Of a stretch of 37,947 nt of DNA, positions 1,981 through 20,947 are shown one piece after another. How positions within the stretch are numbered: position 1 is the stretch's first letter; each line of letters opens with the position of its first letter. Origin of the DNA: Betaproteobacteria bacterium (lineage in GTDB: Bacteria; Pseudomonadota; Gammaproteobacteria; Burkholderiales; CAIKXV01). Under the pieces are notes generated by a model. The model did no database searches. It saw only the letters and a program-made list of their open reading frames with translations, and was not told the origin of the DNA. A program made the translations under genes and the position numbers. Where the stretch lies: assembly GCA_947458835.1 (NCBI GenBank), contig CANHBC010000010.1, positions 1 through 37,947 of the forward strand, in the 5' to 3' direction.

Positions 1981-2976
1981 TTACTCGAACTTGCCCTTGC
2001 GGATGATCGGCCCCCAGCGCTTCTCTTCCTCGCGCACGAAGCGGGTGAACTCCTCCGGCGAACTCGGCGCCGCTTCGATGCCGCGGTCCTTCAGCTGCTG
2101 GCGCACGTCGGCCGTATTGAGCGCGGCTACCATGTCCTTGCTGAAGCGGGCGATCGCGGCCTTCGGCGTCTTCGCCGGCGCGATCAGGCCGTACCAGTTC
2201 GTGGCCTGGTAGCCGGGCACGCCCGCTTCCGCGACCGTGGGCACGTCCGGCAACGCCTCGGCGCGCCTGGCCCCGGTGACCGCCAGCGCGCGCGCCTTGC
2301 CAGCCTGCACCTGGGGCACGGCGGTCGAGATGACCGCGGTGAACATCGGCACCTGGCCGCCGATCAGATCGGTCAGCGCAGGGCCGCCACCCTTGTAGGG
2401 AACGTGGCTCAGCGTGGTGCCGGTCATCGTCTCGAACAGGACGGTCGCAAGGTGGCCGGGACTGCCCACGCCGGAGGTCGCGTAGTTGATCGTGCCCGGC
2501 CTGGCCTTCGCGAGCGCGATCAGGTCCTTCAGCGACTTCGCCTGCACCGACGGATGCACGATCATGATGTTCTGCAGCGTGACCATCATGCCGATCGGCT
2601 CGAAGCTCTTGTACGGGTCGTAGGGCACCTTCTGGATCGCCGGGCTGATCACCAGGTTGCCGATGTGGCCGAACGCCACGCTGTGCCCGTCGGCATCGCT
2701 GCGCGACAGGATCTCCAGCGAGATCACGCCGTTGGCGCCGGGGCGGTTGTCGACCACCAGTTGCTGGCCGAAGGCGTCCTGCAGCTTCGGCTGCAGGATG
2801 CGCGCGACCAGGTCGGTCGCACCGCCCGGCGGGAAGCCGACGATCATCCGCACCGGGCGTGACGGGAAGGACTGTGCCGACGCTGGCACTACGGTGAGGA
2901 GCGCGAGCGCGGCCGCGCCCAGTGCGGCCGGGGCGGTTGGCCGCGGGGGACGGGCGGCGAGGAGGGGCGATTGCAT
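1981..2976 (-). CDS. Bug/TctC family tripartite tricarboxylate transporter substrate-binding protein
   Basis: Signal peptide then SFPSRPVRMIVGFPPGGATDLVARILQPKLQDAFGQQLVVDNRPGANG...; typical Bug core motifs, including YATSGVGSPGHLA and HVPYKGGGPALTDLIGGQV. Confidence 0.95.
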   Translation of the reverse strand: MQSPLLAARPPRPTAPAALGAAALALLTVVPASAQSFPSRPVRMIVGFPPGGATDLVARILQPKLQDAFGQQLVVDNRPGANGVISLEILSRSDADGHSVAFGHIGNLVISPAIQKVPYDPYKSFEPIGMMVTLQNIMIVHPSVQAKSLKDLIALAKARPGTINYATSGVGSPGHLATVLFETMTGTTLSHVPYKGGGPALTDLIGGQVPMFTAVISTAVPQVQAGKARALAVTGARRAEALPDVPTVAEAGVPGYQATNWYGLIAPAKTPKAAIARFSKDMVAALNTADVRQQLKDRGIEAAPSSPEEFTRFVREEEKRWGPIIRKGKFE

Positions 2977-3102: not shown

Positions 3103-4077
3103 TCAGTCGACCAGCACGATCCCGGCACGCCGGATCGCAGCGCCCAGCCGGTTGCGCTCCTCGGCCATGAACCGGCCGAACTGCTCCGCCGTGCCCCCGC
3201 GCAGGACGGCTCCCTGCTGGGTCAGTCGTTCGCGCAGTTCGGGCAGGCGCAGCACGGCCTGCAGTTCCTGGTTGAGCCGCTGCACCAGCGGCTGTGGCGT
3301 CCTCGCCGGTACCACCATGCCCCACCACTGCGTGATGGCGTAGCCGGGCAGCACCTCGGCCACCGGCGGCAGGTCGGGGAGCAGCGGGTCGCGCTGAAGG
3401 CCCGTGGTCGCAATCAGTCGCACGCGTCCGCCCGCCACGTGCGGGACGGCCGCGATCGGCGAAGTGATGATCAGGTGGACCTGGCCGGCGAGCACATCGG
3501 CCAGCGCCGGACCGGCACCCTTGTACGGTACGTGCGACATCTTCACGCCGGCCGCCAGGTTCATCATCTCGCCCGCCAGATGGGCGGGTGTCCCGGTGCC
3601 CGCCGATGCGTAGAGCAGCGGCCGCGACTTCGCGAGTTGCACCAGGTCGGCGACCGTCTTCACCGGCAGCGCACCATGGATCGCCACCACGTTCGCCGCC
3701 GAAGCCAGCAGTCCGACCGGCGCGAAGTCGCGCTCGACATCGAAGGGCAGCCGGTTGCGCATCGCGGGCAGCATCGCGAACACCGTGGTCGATGCGAGCA
3801 GCGCGGTGTGGCCATCCGGGGCAGCCTGTGCGGCGATCTCCGCGCCGATGATTCCGCTCGCCCCGGCTCGGTTGTCGACGACCACCTGCTGGCCGATGCG
3901 TTCGGCGAGCGCCTGCGCGACCGCACGACCGATGATGTCGGGCGCGCCGCCCGGCGCGGAATTCACGATGAAGCGCACCGGCCGTACCGGCCACGGCTGC
4001 TCCGCCGCGGGTGCGGGGGCGGCTACGACCAGCCCCAGCAGCGTGGCCGCCGTACCCCGGGCGACGGATGCATGCAT
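3103..4077 (-). CDS. Bug/TctC family substrate-binding protein
   Basis: Start set at MHASVARGTAATLLGLVVAAPAPAAEQPWPVRPVRFIVNSAPGGAPDIIGRAVAQ (signal peptide). Contains HVPYKGAGPALADVLAGQV. Confidence 0.93.
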   Translation of the reverse strand: MHASVARGTAATLLGLVVAAPAPAAEQPWPVRPVRFIVNSAPGGAPDIIGRAVAQALAERIGQQVVVDNRAGASGIIGAEIAAQAAPDGHTALLASTTVFAMLPAMRNRLPFDVERDFAPVGLLASAANVVAIHGALPVKTVADLVQLAKSRPLLYASAGTGTPAHLAGEMMNLAAGVKMSHVPYKGAGPALADVLAGQVHLIITSPIAAVPHVAGGRVRLIATTGLQRDPLLPDLPPVAEVLPGYAITQWWGMVVPARTPQPLVQRLNQELQAVLRLPELRERLTQQGAVLRGGTAEQFGRFMAEERNRLGAAIRRAGIVLVD

Positions 4078-4091
4078 GGCGGGATTTCCGT

Positions 4092-5573
4092 TCAGGTCTT
4101 TGCGAAGTACCGTGGCTGGACACCGGGCGGCGGCGTATAGCGGAAGGTGCCGAGCCCGAGGATGGCCTCGGCCCCGCCATGGCGGTCGATGTACACCTGC
4201 TGGTCTGCGCGGGCCAGTGCATCGGCCGCCTGCGGATCGACGATCTTCATCAGGGCGGCCAGGCACTCGGCCCGCACGCCTGCGTGGGCCGGATCGCTGG
4301 CGAGGTCGACCGTCTCCTCCGGATCGGCCTCGAGGTCGAACAGCATCGGCGGCGGAACGAAGTCGCGGAACGCCGCGTAGTGGATGTACTTGTAGCGGCC
4401 GTGCCGGATCATGAACGAGCCCGAGGGAGACGCGGCCGCGTGATACTCGGACAGCACCGTGCGCTGCGGCCGTGCACCGTTGGCCATCGCGATCAGCGAA
4501 TGTCCGGGCAGGTCGGCGTCGTCCGGATGGGCCGGCACGCCCAGCGAATCGAGCGTGGTCTGGAACACGTCGACCAGCGACACCGGCGCATCGATGCGCG
4601 CCCCTTGCGGGACGCCGGGGCCGGCGAGCAGCATCGGGATGCCGGCCGACTCCTCATACATGGTCGACTTGCCCCAGAGGCCGCGGGCGCCCAGGTTGTC
4701 GCCGTGGTCCGACGAGTAGAGCACCCGCGTGTTCGACCACAGCCCGAGATCCTCGACCGTACCGAGGATCTGGCCGACGTTGTCGTCGAGGAAGCTGGTC
4801 AGGCCGAAGTAGCCGGCGAGCGCCCGGCGCACCATGTCGTCGTCGGTGAAACCCTCGTCGAAGCACATCGACCAGCGCTGCCGGTCGATGAACGGATGCC
4901 GTGGCCGCGCCTCCTTCGCATAGAGCTTCGGCCAGGGCAGCGAATCCGGCGGATACAGGTCGTAGAACGCCTGCGGGGCGATCAGCGGGAAATGCGGCGC
5001 GACGAACCCGACATAGAGCACCCACGGACGGTCCCGGTGCTTGGGGGCTTCCTCGCGCAGCCACCGGCGGGTCGCGGTGACGATGTCGCGGTCGTAGCGG
5101 GTGTAGTCGGATTCGCCCGGGCCAGCCTCGGGCCCGAGCTTCATCGCGCCCACGCGCTTCGGCAGTTCGTCGCGGATGAGTCCCAGCAGGTCGCCGACCC
5201 CGTTGACGATGTGCATCGGCAGGATCTCTTCGTCGAACCCGTTGCGGCGTGGGTCGGAGTCCTGATAGTGCAGCTTGCCGATCGACACCGTGCGGTGGCC
5301 GGCCGCCATGGTGCGATGGCCCCAGCTCGGCGGCGAGCCCTCGTAGGCGATCGCGTTGTCCCAGCAACGATGCTCGTGCACGTGGCGGCCGGTGGCGAGG
5401 CTGGCCCGGCCCGGCACGCAGATCGGGCAGTTCGTGTAGGCGCTCGCGAAGCGCGTGCCGCGGGCCGCGAGGCGATCCAGATTGGGTGTCTGCACGATCG
5501 GGTGGCCGGCGTACCCGGCCACCTTCGGGTTGTGCTCGTCGGACAGGATGACGATCAGGTTCGTCGGTTGCAT
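4092..5573 (-). CDS. Sulfatase (arylsulfatase/choline-sulfatase-like, FGly type)
   Basis: Start set at MQPTNLIVILSDEHNPKVAGYAGHPIVQTPNLDRLAARGTRF. CVPGRASLATGR fits the CxPxR formylglycine motif. Later YSSDHGDNLGARGLWGKSTMYEES. Confidence 0.93.
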   Translation of the reverse strand: MQPTNLIVILSDEHNPKVAGYAGHPIVQTPNLDRLAARGTRFASAYTNCPICVPGRASLATGRHVHEHRCWDNAIAYEGSPPSWGHRTMAAGHRTVSIGKLHYQDSDPRRNGFDEEILPMHIVNGVGDLLGLIRDELPKRVGAMKLGPEAGPGESDYTRYDRDIVTATRRWLREEAPKHRDRPWVLYVGFVAPHFPLIAPQAFYDLYPPDSLPWPKLYAKEARPRHPFIDRQRWSMCFDEGFTDDDMVRRALAGYFGLTSFLDDNVGQILGTVEDLGLWSNTRVLYSSDHGDNLGARGLWGKSTMYEESAGIPMLLAGPGVPQGARIDAPVSLVDVFQTTLDSLGVPAHPDDADLPGHSLIAMANGARPQRTVLSEYHAAASPSGSFMIRHGRYKYIHYAAFRDFVPPPMLFDLEADPEETVDLASDPAHAGVRAECLAALMKIVDPQAADALARADQQVYIDRHGGAEAILGLGTFRYTPPPGVQPRYFAKT

Positions 5574-6043: not shown

Positions 6044-7021
6044 TCACGGCGCGAGTCTTGCCGCCTTCACGACCCGGGTCCACCGCTCGATATCCTCGCG
6101 AATGATGCGGTCAAAGGCCTCGGGAGTGCCCACCTGCGGCTCCAGGCCCATTCCGGCGAAACGCTCCTTGACGTCGGGTGACGCGACGGTCGCGTGCAGG
6201 TCGCGGGCGATCCGCGCTATCAGCGGGCGCGGCGTGCCGGCGGGCGCAGAAATGCCGAACCAGATGTTGACATCGTAGCCCTTCATTCCCTGCTCGCTGG
6301 TGGTCGGGACGTCGGGGAACACGTCGAGCCGCCGGTTGCCCGCGACGGCGAGTGCCTTGATCTTGCCCGCGCGGATCATCCCCTGCGCGGTGACCGGCGT
6401 GGTGAAGATGATGCTCACCTGCCCTGCGATCATGTCGGTGATCGCAGGTGCGGCACCCTTGTACGGCACGTGCAGGATGTCGGTGCCCGAGAGCATCTTG
6501 AAGTACTCGAGCGCGAGGTGGCTGCTGCCGCCCGCGCCCGAAGATCCGCCCGTAAGCTGGCCCGGTCTCGCCTTGGCGATCGCAATCAGCTCTTTCATGC
6601 TCGCCGCGGGGAACGTCGCGCTGGTCAGCAACATGATCGGCGACCAGCCGAGCAGCGTCACCGAGGCGAAGTCTTCCGGGCGGTAAGGCGTCTTCGCGCG
6701 CAGCGCGAAGTTGATGGCATTGGAGCCCGGGTTGGTCATCAGCAGCGTGTAGCCATCCGGATTGGACCGTGCGACGATTTCGGCGCCAACGAGGCCACCC
6801 GCGCCGCTGCGGTTGTCGATCACGACCTGCTGTCCCCAGGCCTCTGACAGCTTCTGCCCGAGGAGCCGCGCGACGACGTCGTTCGATGCGCCCGGCGGAT
6901 ACGGGACGACAAGCCGCACGGCCCGTACCGGAAAGTCGCTGGCCTTCGGCTGGGCATGCGCGGGAGCGCCAGGCAGCATGGCGGAAAGCAGCACGGTGGC
7001 CACCGCGGATTGAACCCTCAT
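6044..7021 (-). CDS. Bug/TctC family substrate-binding protein
   Basis: Start set at MRVQSAVATVLLSAMLPGAPAHAQPKASDFPVRAVRLVVPYPPGASNDVVARLLGQKL. Contains HVPYKGAAPAITDMIAGQVSIIFTTPVTA. Confidence 0.95.
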   Translation of the reverse strand: MRVQSAVATVLLSAMLPGAPAHAQPKASDFPVRAVRLVVPYPPGASNDVVARLLGQKLSEAWGQQVVIDNRSGAGGLVGAEIVARSNPDGYTLLMTNPGSNAINFALRAKTPYRPEDFASVTLLGWSPIMLLTSATFPAASMKELIAIAKARPGQLTGGSSGAGGSSHLALEYFKMLSGTDILHVPYKGAAPAITDMIAGQVSIIFTTPVTAQGMIRAGKIKALAVAGNRRLDVFPDVPTTSEQGMKGYDVNIWFGISAPAGTPRPLIARIARDLHATVASPDVKERFAGMGLEPQVGTPEAFDRIIREDIERWTRVVKAARLAP

Positions 7022-7169
7022 GTTCCCCTCCTCCGTGTGCGCTCGGAGCGTCCAGAGCATCACCAGAAACAGCGATCCGGTTTCTTCGACCGGCACACAT
7101 GATAGACGTGGAAACGGCAGGCTGTCCCGCAGGCCGCCTCGGGTGGCGTGAACGGGAACGCGAGGTGGC

Positions 7170-7262
7170 CGCCGACCGGGGCGGGAGTGTGTTGTGTTGC
7201 GCGTCGTCTCTTTCTACGAAGCGGCCTGGAGGCGGCGGATTCCGTCCCCGGCGTTCCCGCCG
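7170..7262 (+). pseudogene. 3' remnant of an amidase gene, related to the amidase at 3..1934
   Basis: Translated frame RRPGRECVVLRVVSFYEAAWRRRIPSPAFPP aligns with the amidase C-terminus CEPGREDVLLKVASSYEAASKRRVSPPAFPP (about 19/31 identical by eye). Exact shared 15-mer ccggcgttcccgccg. Confidence 0.72.
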
Positions 7263-7897
7263 CGGGCATTCGCGCGCGCCGCTGCACCGAGACCGGCCAG
7301 GCCGGACATCAGCAGCAGGAGCGGCGCCGGGAGCGGGACTACCGGCGTCGGTGCGGCAAAGATCGCGTCGAACACGACCGGTCTGTAGCCGGACGCGTCG
7401 GGTGGCACGGAGGCAAACTCGACGATGCGCATTGCCGCACCCCAGCCCTTCGCGTTGTCGAACGTGAAATCCGACAGGGTGAGGCCGGGACGCGATAGGC
7501 TGAACTGGAACTGCGGCACCGCGAACGGCCCCGGGAACGGGACGACGTTGAAGGTGAATTCGCCGAAGCCGCCGACGTCTCCCAGGTTAAGGATGTAGCC
7601 AGGTACGCTGAACACCAGGGGCTGTCCGTGTGTGACGTTGAACCACACCCCGGCGACGGCGAAATTCTGCTGGGTCGATGGCCGGTTGAGCAGGTCACCA
7701 ACGGTAGCCGAGAAGAGCACGCTGTCCGCGCCGGTTTCGGTCAAGGTGAGCGAGCCGTAACGGTAGAACTCCGGCAGCAGGGGGGCGTTCGCCGTACCCA
7801 TCACGTAACTCACGCTGTTCGCTGCAGCGAGGCTGGACGCGAAACCCGCCATCGCGACGCACAGGCAACCGGTCAATCGGACGACGGACTGCATCAT
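7214..7897 (-). CDS. VPLPA-CTERM (PEP-CTERM-like) sorting-domain secreted protein
   Basis: N-terminal signal MMQSVVRLTGCLCVAMAGFASSLAAANSVSYV. C-terminal VPLPAPLLLLMSGLAGLGAAARANARGG is a tripartite sorting signal. The last ~15 residues lie antisense to the amidase remnant. Confidence 0.8.
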   Translation of the reverse strand: MMQSVVRLTGCLCVAMAGFASSLAAANSVSYVMGTANAPLLPEFYRYGSLTLTETGADSVLFSATVGDLLNRPSTQQNFAVAGVWFNVTHGQPLVFSVPGYILNLGDVGGFGEFTFNVVPFPGPFAVPQFQFSLSRPGLTLSDFTFDNAKGWGAAMRIVEFASVPPDASGYRPVVFDAIFAAPTPVVPLPAPLLLLMSGLAGLGAAARANARGGNAGDGIRRLQAAS

Positions 7898-7993
7898 GGC
7901 ACTCTCCCGATGGTCGGAACATGAGACCGGATGATTGGCCACTCGGCGCCCTGGCGTGTTGACGTGGATCAACCATACAGCGTCGAATAGCAG

Positions 7994-8647
7994 GTGAGCG
8001 ACCGCACGGCAGGCGGGCTTGATCGATGCTTTGCCCTGTCGATCGTGGGCGCCATCGTCGCTGCATTGACCGGCTCCGCCGCTGCCGCCACCGTCACTAC
8101 TGACGCGGTCGGCACCGGCTTCGGTGGCACTAGCCTGATGTTGAACAGTTCATCGGGCGCCGCCGCCACGCTGTCATACGTTGCCGCGCCGACTACCGCC
8201 ACCGGCACCCCCTCGAATGTGAAGTACGGAATCTTCACGCTCGCGTGCCCGGGCTGCTCCCTCCAGGAACTGGGCACCGGCGCCACGCTCAATGCGTTCA
8301 CTTTCGACCTGCTCGTTCAGGACATCAACGAAGGCGGAACGGGCAAGTTCGTCGGATCATCCGCCAGCGGGACGATCTTCAGCGATGTCAGCCCGATCAT
8401 CCTCAACTGGGCGCCGACGTCCATCGGGCCGGGCGCGAACGGCGCTTTGCGCGTTACCTTTGGCATGTCCATCTTCAGCCTGGACGGGTTCACTGGCATC
8501 GTCGCGCCAAACTCGGGGGCAGTGCTCGGACAGACGACGGTCTAGGGTGTGGTCATTGAGAACATTCCGGTGCCTGGCAGTGCGCTGATTACTGCCAGCG
8601 GGCTGGCGCTGTTCGGCCTGCTGCGCAAGAAAGGTCGCAGCGCGTAG
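7994..8647 (+). pseudogene. PEP-CTERM-type secreted protein interrupted by an in-frame amber codon (TAG at 8543-8545)
   Basis: ORF 7994..8545 has signal peptide CFALSIVGAIVAALTGSAAAATV but no sorting tail. Same-frame continuation after TAG reads GVVIENIPVPGSALITASGLALFGLLRKKGRSA*, a complete sorting tail (PxPGS, hydrophobic helix, basic end). Start codon (GTG) uncertain. Confidence 0.72.
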
Positions 8648-8904
8648 CAGCAGGAACGATTGTCCGCGGGCTGTACGCCCGTGGCCATGTCGCTTCGGCC
8701 CTCGACCTCACCGACTTCTGAGACCCGCATCACATGATGGTCATCGAAGCTGCAGGCCGTCGCCGATGAATCGAGCGCTCCCCGTGCCTGGGCGCAGCCT
8801 CTGCCTCGCACCGTAGCGGCACCGCGGGCCGCCTCCGGTGCCCGACGGCGCGGTCCCGCGCGCTGCCTTACACTCGCGGCCACACACCACGGACGGGCAC
8901 CGAG

Positions 8905-19731: not shown

Positions 19732-20724
19732 TCATTCGCCCTTGATGCCGGCGTCGCGGATCACCCGCCCGTAACGCACCGCCTCGCTGCGGATGAACTC
19801 GGCAAACTGCTCCGGCGTGCTGGTGCGCGATTCGATGCCCGAGGCCGCGAGCTTCTCGCGCAGGTCGGGCGAGGCGAGCGCCTTGACCACCTCGGTGTTG
19901 AGCCGCCCGATGAGCTCGCGCGAGGTGCCCGACGGGGACAGCACGCCGTACCAGATAGGCACTTCGAACCCGGCGACGCCCGATTCCGCCGCGGTGGGCA
20001 CGTTCGGCAGGTTCGGTACCCGCTTCTCGGACAGCACCGCGATCGCCTTCACCTTGCCCGCGGCGACCTGCGGCGCGGCGACGGCTGCCGCCATGATCAG
20101 CATGTCTGTCTCGCCGGACATCATCCCGACCAGCGCCTGGCCCGACCCCTTGTAGGGCACGTGCACGGTACGGATCTTCATCAGGCTGTTGAGCAGTTCG
20201 GCCGCCAGGTGGCCGGTGGTGCCGACTCCGCCCGAGCTGTAATTCAACCGGCCGGGGTTGGCGCGGGCGATCTTCACCAGATCGCCGAGGGTCTTCGCCG
20301 GCACCGACGGGTGGGTGATCAGGATGTTCTGGATCACCGCCACCAGCGAGATCGGCGCGAGGTCCTTCATCGGATCGTAGTTCAGCTTGGCATACAGCGA
20401 CGGGCTGATCGAGATCAGCGGCGAGGACAGCACCATGGTGTAGCCGTCGGGTGCCGCCTTCGATGCGATCTCCAAGCCGAGGTTGCCGCCGGCGCCTGGC
20501 CGGTTGTCGACCGTGACCGGCTGGCCGACCTGTTCCGAGAGCTTGGCCGCAACGCTGCGCCCGAGCAGGTCGGTCGGGCCGCCGGGCGGGAACGGCAGGA
20601 TCATGCGCATCGGCTTGACCGGGAACGGCTGAGCCTGCGCCATTGCGGCGCTCGAGGCCAGCACTGCCGCGGCCAGGGCAACGAGCTTGACGCCGCAGTG
20701 GCGCGCGGACGGATCGTGCGTCAT
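19732..20724 (-). CDS. Bug/TctC family substrate-binding protein
   Basis: Start set at MTHDPSARHCGVKLVALAAAVLASSAAMAQAQPFPVKPMRMILPFPPGGPTDLLGRSVAAKL. Contains YSSGGVGTTGHLAAELLNS and HVPYKGSGQALVGMMSGE. Confidence 0.94.
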   Translation of the reverse strand: MTHDPSARHCGVKLVALAAAVLASSAAMAQAQPFPVKPMRMILPFPPGGPTDLLGRSVAAKLSEQVGQPVTVDNRPGAGGNLGLEIASKAAPDGYTMVLSSPLISISPSLYAKLNYDPMKDLAPISLVAVIQNILITHPSVPAKTLGDLVKIARANPGRLNYSSGGVGTTGHLAAELLNSLMKIRTVHVPYKGSGQALVGMMSGETDMLIMAAAVAAPQVAAGKVKAIAVLSEKRVPNLPNVPTAAESGVAGFEVPIWYGVLSPSGTSRELIGRLNTEVVKALASPDLREKLAASGIESRTSTPEQFAEFIRSEAVRYGRVIRDAGIKGE

Positions 20725-20771
20725 CGTGTTTTTCCTCCGTTGGGCGTCCATCGCCTGGCGCCGTGGTTGCA

Positions 20772-20793
20772 CCGCCCCGCGGCAGCGGGGCGG
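20772..20793. other. Perfect intergenic hairpin between rlmJ and the Bug gene
   Basis: CCGCCCCGC-ggca-GCGGGGCGG, 9-bp perfect stem with 4-nt loop. Could be a transcriptional or leader element; no U-tract. Confidence 0.4.
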
Positions 20794-20947
20794 CACCCGG
20801 GCGGCCGGCGCCCGCGCTTGTGTCGCGCGGGTCGTCTTCACGGCCCCTCCGTGTCTGCCAGCAAGCTTATCAGCATGCGCGCAGGAGCCGCAAACCGCGC
20901 ATTGCATCGCACTGGCTGCGCGCCGTGCGCGCCCGGCCCGGGCTGCT

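Follow-up and report, generated by a model that had tools for sequence, protein, structure and literature searches.

A probable pseudogene of a small PEP-CTERM exported protein with a lost start region and a premature amber codon in a betaproteobacterial genome

We describe a locus in a 37,947-nucleotide stretch of DNA from an environmental betaproteobacterium (hereafter the window) that, judging from comparison with its relatives, is very probably a gene for a small exported protein of the PEP-CTERM type that became a pseudogene fairly recently. Set against two syntenic orthologues, it displays two disabling lesions, namely a TAG codon in the place of GAG and a 128-bp loss that encompasses the start region; both are present in the assembly and neither is found in the relatives. 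An earlier note on this DNA had seen only the first of these, which is real, and had missed the second. It had offered recent inactivation as one of three options, the others being a sequencing error and a rarer readthrough of the stop, and it is the first option that the sense codon and intact tail of the orthologues bear out. As the start signal has been lost in addition to the gain of a stop, we favor ordinary gene decay over a mechanism by which the protein would alternate between a released and an anchored form. Such decay is of a known type, and there is nothing new in kind here: the locus shares with other bacterial pseudogenes bearing nonsense and deletion lesions the lineage-unique nonsense codon, the loss of the start, and the intact syntenic orthologues. 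Nor does it differ notably from the typical members of that class; its tail after the stop is well preserved, and the decay would therefore be recent. The case carries a more general caution, in that little can be read into an intact frame downstream of a stop codon before the gene's translation start has been compared with that of orthologues.

The frame beginning with a GTG at 7994 runs uninterrupted to a TAG at 8543-8545 (ORF 7994..8545, + strand). Past this codon, another 33 sense codons (GVVIENIPVPGSALITASGLALFGLLRKKGRSA) follow in the same frame before a second TAG closes it at 8645-8647 (+), exactly as first described; this second TAG is the original stop after the sorting tail. Read through the internal TAG, the remnant of this PEP-CTERM family gene thus spans 7994..8647 (+). 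The segment severed from the body by the premature amber codon includes an intact-looking exosortase-type sorting tail (8564..8644, +), in which an IPVPG motif, a hydrophobic stretch predicted to form a helix, and a basic end (RKKGR) are visible. Taken by itself, this tail matches the curated PEP-CTERM models slightly below their cut-offs, with 15.6 bits against Pfam PF07589 (cut-off 20.7) and 14.2 against TIGR02595 (cut-off 16). It can be aligned to the very end of the two orthologues, which belong to the same genus, and of a paralogue in the same genome; its presence in these homologues shows that the frame is not open by chance, and the exosortase-type tail first noted there is real. Directly 3' of the original stop lies a stable hairpin (CCGCGGGC/GCCCGUGG, 8664-8685), which is also seen by inspection in both orthologues and may be a transcription terminator, though it is without a following T-run.

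When 200 related genomes were searched in six frames, the gene was recovered in two others, both of the same genus (G010, contig C13, and G009, contig C155), whose public counterparts are metagenome-assembled genomes (MAGs) labelled Betaproteobacteria. Each of these copies shows 78% protein identity to that in the window over the body, and each adjoins the same divergent PEP-CTERM gene as in the window (7214..7894, - strand), which identifies them as syntenic orthologues. The genome to which the window belongs (G000) codes for a second, more distant copy on contig C113 with 54% identity, and all three of these copies are uninterrupted through the tail. Beyond the orthologues of G010 and G009, a scan of GTDB genomes for further relatives yielded only a single distant homologue (L048, JAPKYY010000732.1). 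This homologue, 54% identical and with a classical VPEPG tail, comes from a MAG labelled Acidobacteria, to be explained either by horizontal transfer or by a mis-binned contig. The position of the premature amber codon (8543..8545, +) is occupied by GAG in both orthologues, in the context TTV-E-GVV, and a Glu is also found there in the paralogue and in the distant homologue. Hence, Glu is invariant in 4/4 relatives, none of which has an in-frame stop at this point, and the TAG is unique to this genome. Given this invariance and the GAG of the orthologues, the TAG most likely arose from GAG, and not from CAG as had been proposed at the outset.

The second lesion emerges from a three-way DNA alignment, in which the window shows a gap between GATCGATGC (8021) and GCCCTGTCG (8033). 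The missing stretch measures 128 bp in comparison with each of the two orthologues, and its junction falls at 8029..8034 (+). In the relatives, these 128 bp encompass a hairpin (GGACGCACTGTGTGCGTCC), a Shine-Dalgarno sequence (CTGGAG), the start codon ATG, and the opening codons of the signal peptide (MRxKPLLT); by inspection, the complete N-terminus of the orthologues is signal-peptide-like (MRxKPLLTxALSIAG...ASAA), with its first codons deleted in the window. Through this loss, a segment (7994..8032, +) that in both orthologues has its counterpart ahead of the native ATG has come to be joined, in frame, with the coding sequence. GTG 7994, the apparent start of the frame originally delineated, thus corresponds to a position in the untranslated leader upstream of the gene in the relatives, and the window has lost the native start itself. 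This GTG has no ribosome-binding site, with a best anti-Shine-Dalgarno pairing of -0.3 kcal/mol, weaker than that of most start-like triplets in the window, versus -5.6 to -6.6 kcal/mol at the native starts of three intact relatives. The next in-frame start candidates down to 8066 reach at best -3.6 kcal/mol, with no usable Shine-Dalgarno sequence among them. In G010, the tetranucleotide GCCC is found at either edge of the missing stretch, which would fit a deletion between very short repeats. When the 128-bp stretch was searched elsewhere in the window's own genome as a check for misassembly, no match was found. The same alignment shows the window to be additionally without two codons after ATVT.

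The palindromic hairpin GGACGCACTGTGTGCGTCC, on which a folding run was performed, is conserved ahead of the ATG in the leaders of the two intact orthologues (L006/L007: G010:C13:79660-79678; G009:C155:5581-5599) and is possibly regulatory. Considered as a dispersed element, it was rejected, as its repeats elsewhere are not above chance.

We propose that the ancestor of this gene resembled the intact orthologues of its congeners: a body of ~150 residues would have been preceded by a signal peptide and followed by a tail of the IPVPG type, with translation beginning at an ATG behind a good Shine-Dalgarno sequence. Two events would have occurred in this lineage, namely a deletion of 128 bp that took away the start region, and a nonsense mutation from GAG to TAG that severed the sorting tail. 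The gene would now be without useful translation, and its role, if needed, would be filled by the intact paralogue. With respect to selection, the pairwise dN/dS of the window copy is 0.54 and 0.36 versus the two relatives, as against 0.29 between the relatives themselves. In tests that are based on small samples and were picked after the lesions were known, the lineage-specific nonsynonymous/synonymous codon changes are 14/11 for the window and 23/30 for the two relatives, a difference that is not significant (p = 0.34), while departures at residues that do not vary among the remaining four members of the family number 8/87 in the window, 2/81 in G010, and 1/80 in G009, an excess over these closest relatives (3/161 combined) with a Fisher p of 0.018 (0.035 once the indel column is removed). 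These figures lend modest support to a relaxed constraint on the window copy, which would be consistent with recent decay. Despite the lesions, the body and the tail stay open and look constrained; hence, either little time has passed since decay set in or the argument for a loss of constraint is modest.

The PEP-CTERM/exosortase (EpsH) sorting system was first described in PMC1569441, with its tails captured by TIGR02595/PF07589 and the exosortase by PF09721; the sole mention of a stop codon in that founding paper does not concern readthrough. The orthologues and the paralogue share with the substrates of this system a signal-peptide-like N-terminus, a body of low homology, and a C-terminus comprising (I/V)PxPG, a hydrophobic helix, and a basic end, and the distant homologue has the classical form of the motif. 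The own genome encodes an exosortase (PF09721, 233 bits, G000:C101:1070-1831). As the genome retains this exosortase gene together with the intact paralogue and the intact adjacent divergent PEP-CTERM gene (with a VPLPA-type tail, an ordinary TAG end, and synteny conserved in G009 and G010), the sorting apparatus is still there, and the damage concerns only the substrate encoded at 7994..8647. In contrast to intact substrates, the window copy is without its start region and is interrupted ahead of the tail, and a sorted product would not be expected from it.

Of the competing explanations, the one that survives best, even if we consider it unlikely, is that the real gene is intact and that the lesions are an artefact of assembly or strain mixture, with the draft having been collapsed or mis-joined. 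The draft comprises 257 contigs with an estimated contamination of 3.97%, the short GCCC repeats seen in G010 flank the missing stretch, and a second genome of the same species was not found among the 200 related genomes or in the GTDB scan. However, an artefact would need two separate errors within a single gene, the 128-bp loss and, at a distance of 510 bp, the nonsense base, on a contig whose neighboring genes are intact, and it leaves the raised rate of conserved-residue changes unexplained. It is distinctly improbable that the truncated copy is functional, with a restart at GTG 7994 and the amber codon rendering an anchored protein constitutively released. The fused frame, being open from this GTG to the TAG, does retain most of the signal peptide, its translation would still give a signal-peptide-like N-terminus, and the dN/dS of the body is below 1; yet the GTG is essentially without Shine-Dalgarno pairing, the leader with its conserved hairpin has been lost, and otherwise invariant residues are altered more often than in the relatives. 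A variant of this proposal, wherein the copy translated from the leader-derived GTG is a constitutively secreted form and rare amber readthrough furnishes the sorted form, appears slightly less probable still.

Decay also accounts better for the locus than programmed or leaky readthrough of the amber codon, by which the earlier note had envisaged released and exosortase-anchored forms, and which, if true, would be a new type of switch between the secreted and the anchored state of a bacterial surface protein. For bacteria, conservation and dN/dS have been used to argue for candidate functional in-frame stops, and genes with such stops under purifying selection were reported as possible cases of readthrough (PMC7918605). 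As in those cases, the homologous frame continues behind the stop in the window, with the tail in frame and intact; unlike them, the stop is not conserved, being kept in 0/4 relatives, and the translation start has been lost as well. The neighboring PEP-CTERM gene terminates in TAG, which therefore is an ordinary stop here. The check for a suppressor tRNA that had been advised returned no CTA anticodon in the set of tRNA genes that was recovered from this genome (Rfam RF00005, typed with ARAGORN), in a census that is partial, as the draft is without some tRNAs (no Tyr or Ile seen). With the stop unique to this genome, the native start, Shine-Dalgarno sequence, and leader deleted, TAG read by none of the tRNAs found, and no inverted repeat that might act as a recoding signal in 7975-8660, we regard readthrough as the least probable of these readings.

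In the wider neighborhood, four genes for TctC-type (Bug) periplasmic receptors (Pfam PF03401) are found in this one 38-kb window (1981-2976, 3103-4266, 6044-7096, and 19732-20907, all on the - strand). These genes cross-match in DNA, and further related copies lie near the orthologue in both G009 and G010.
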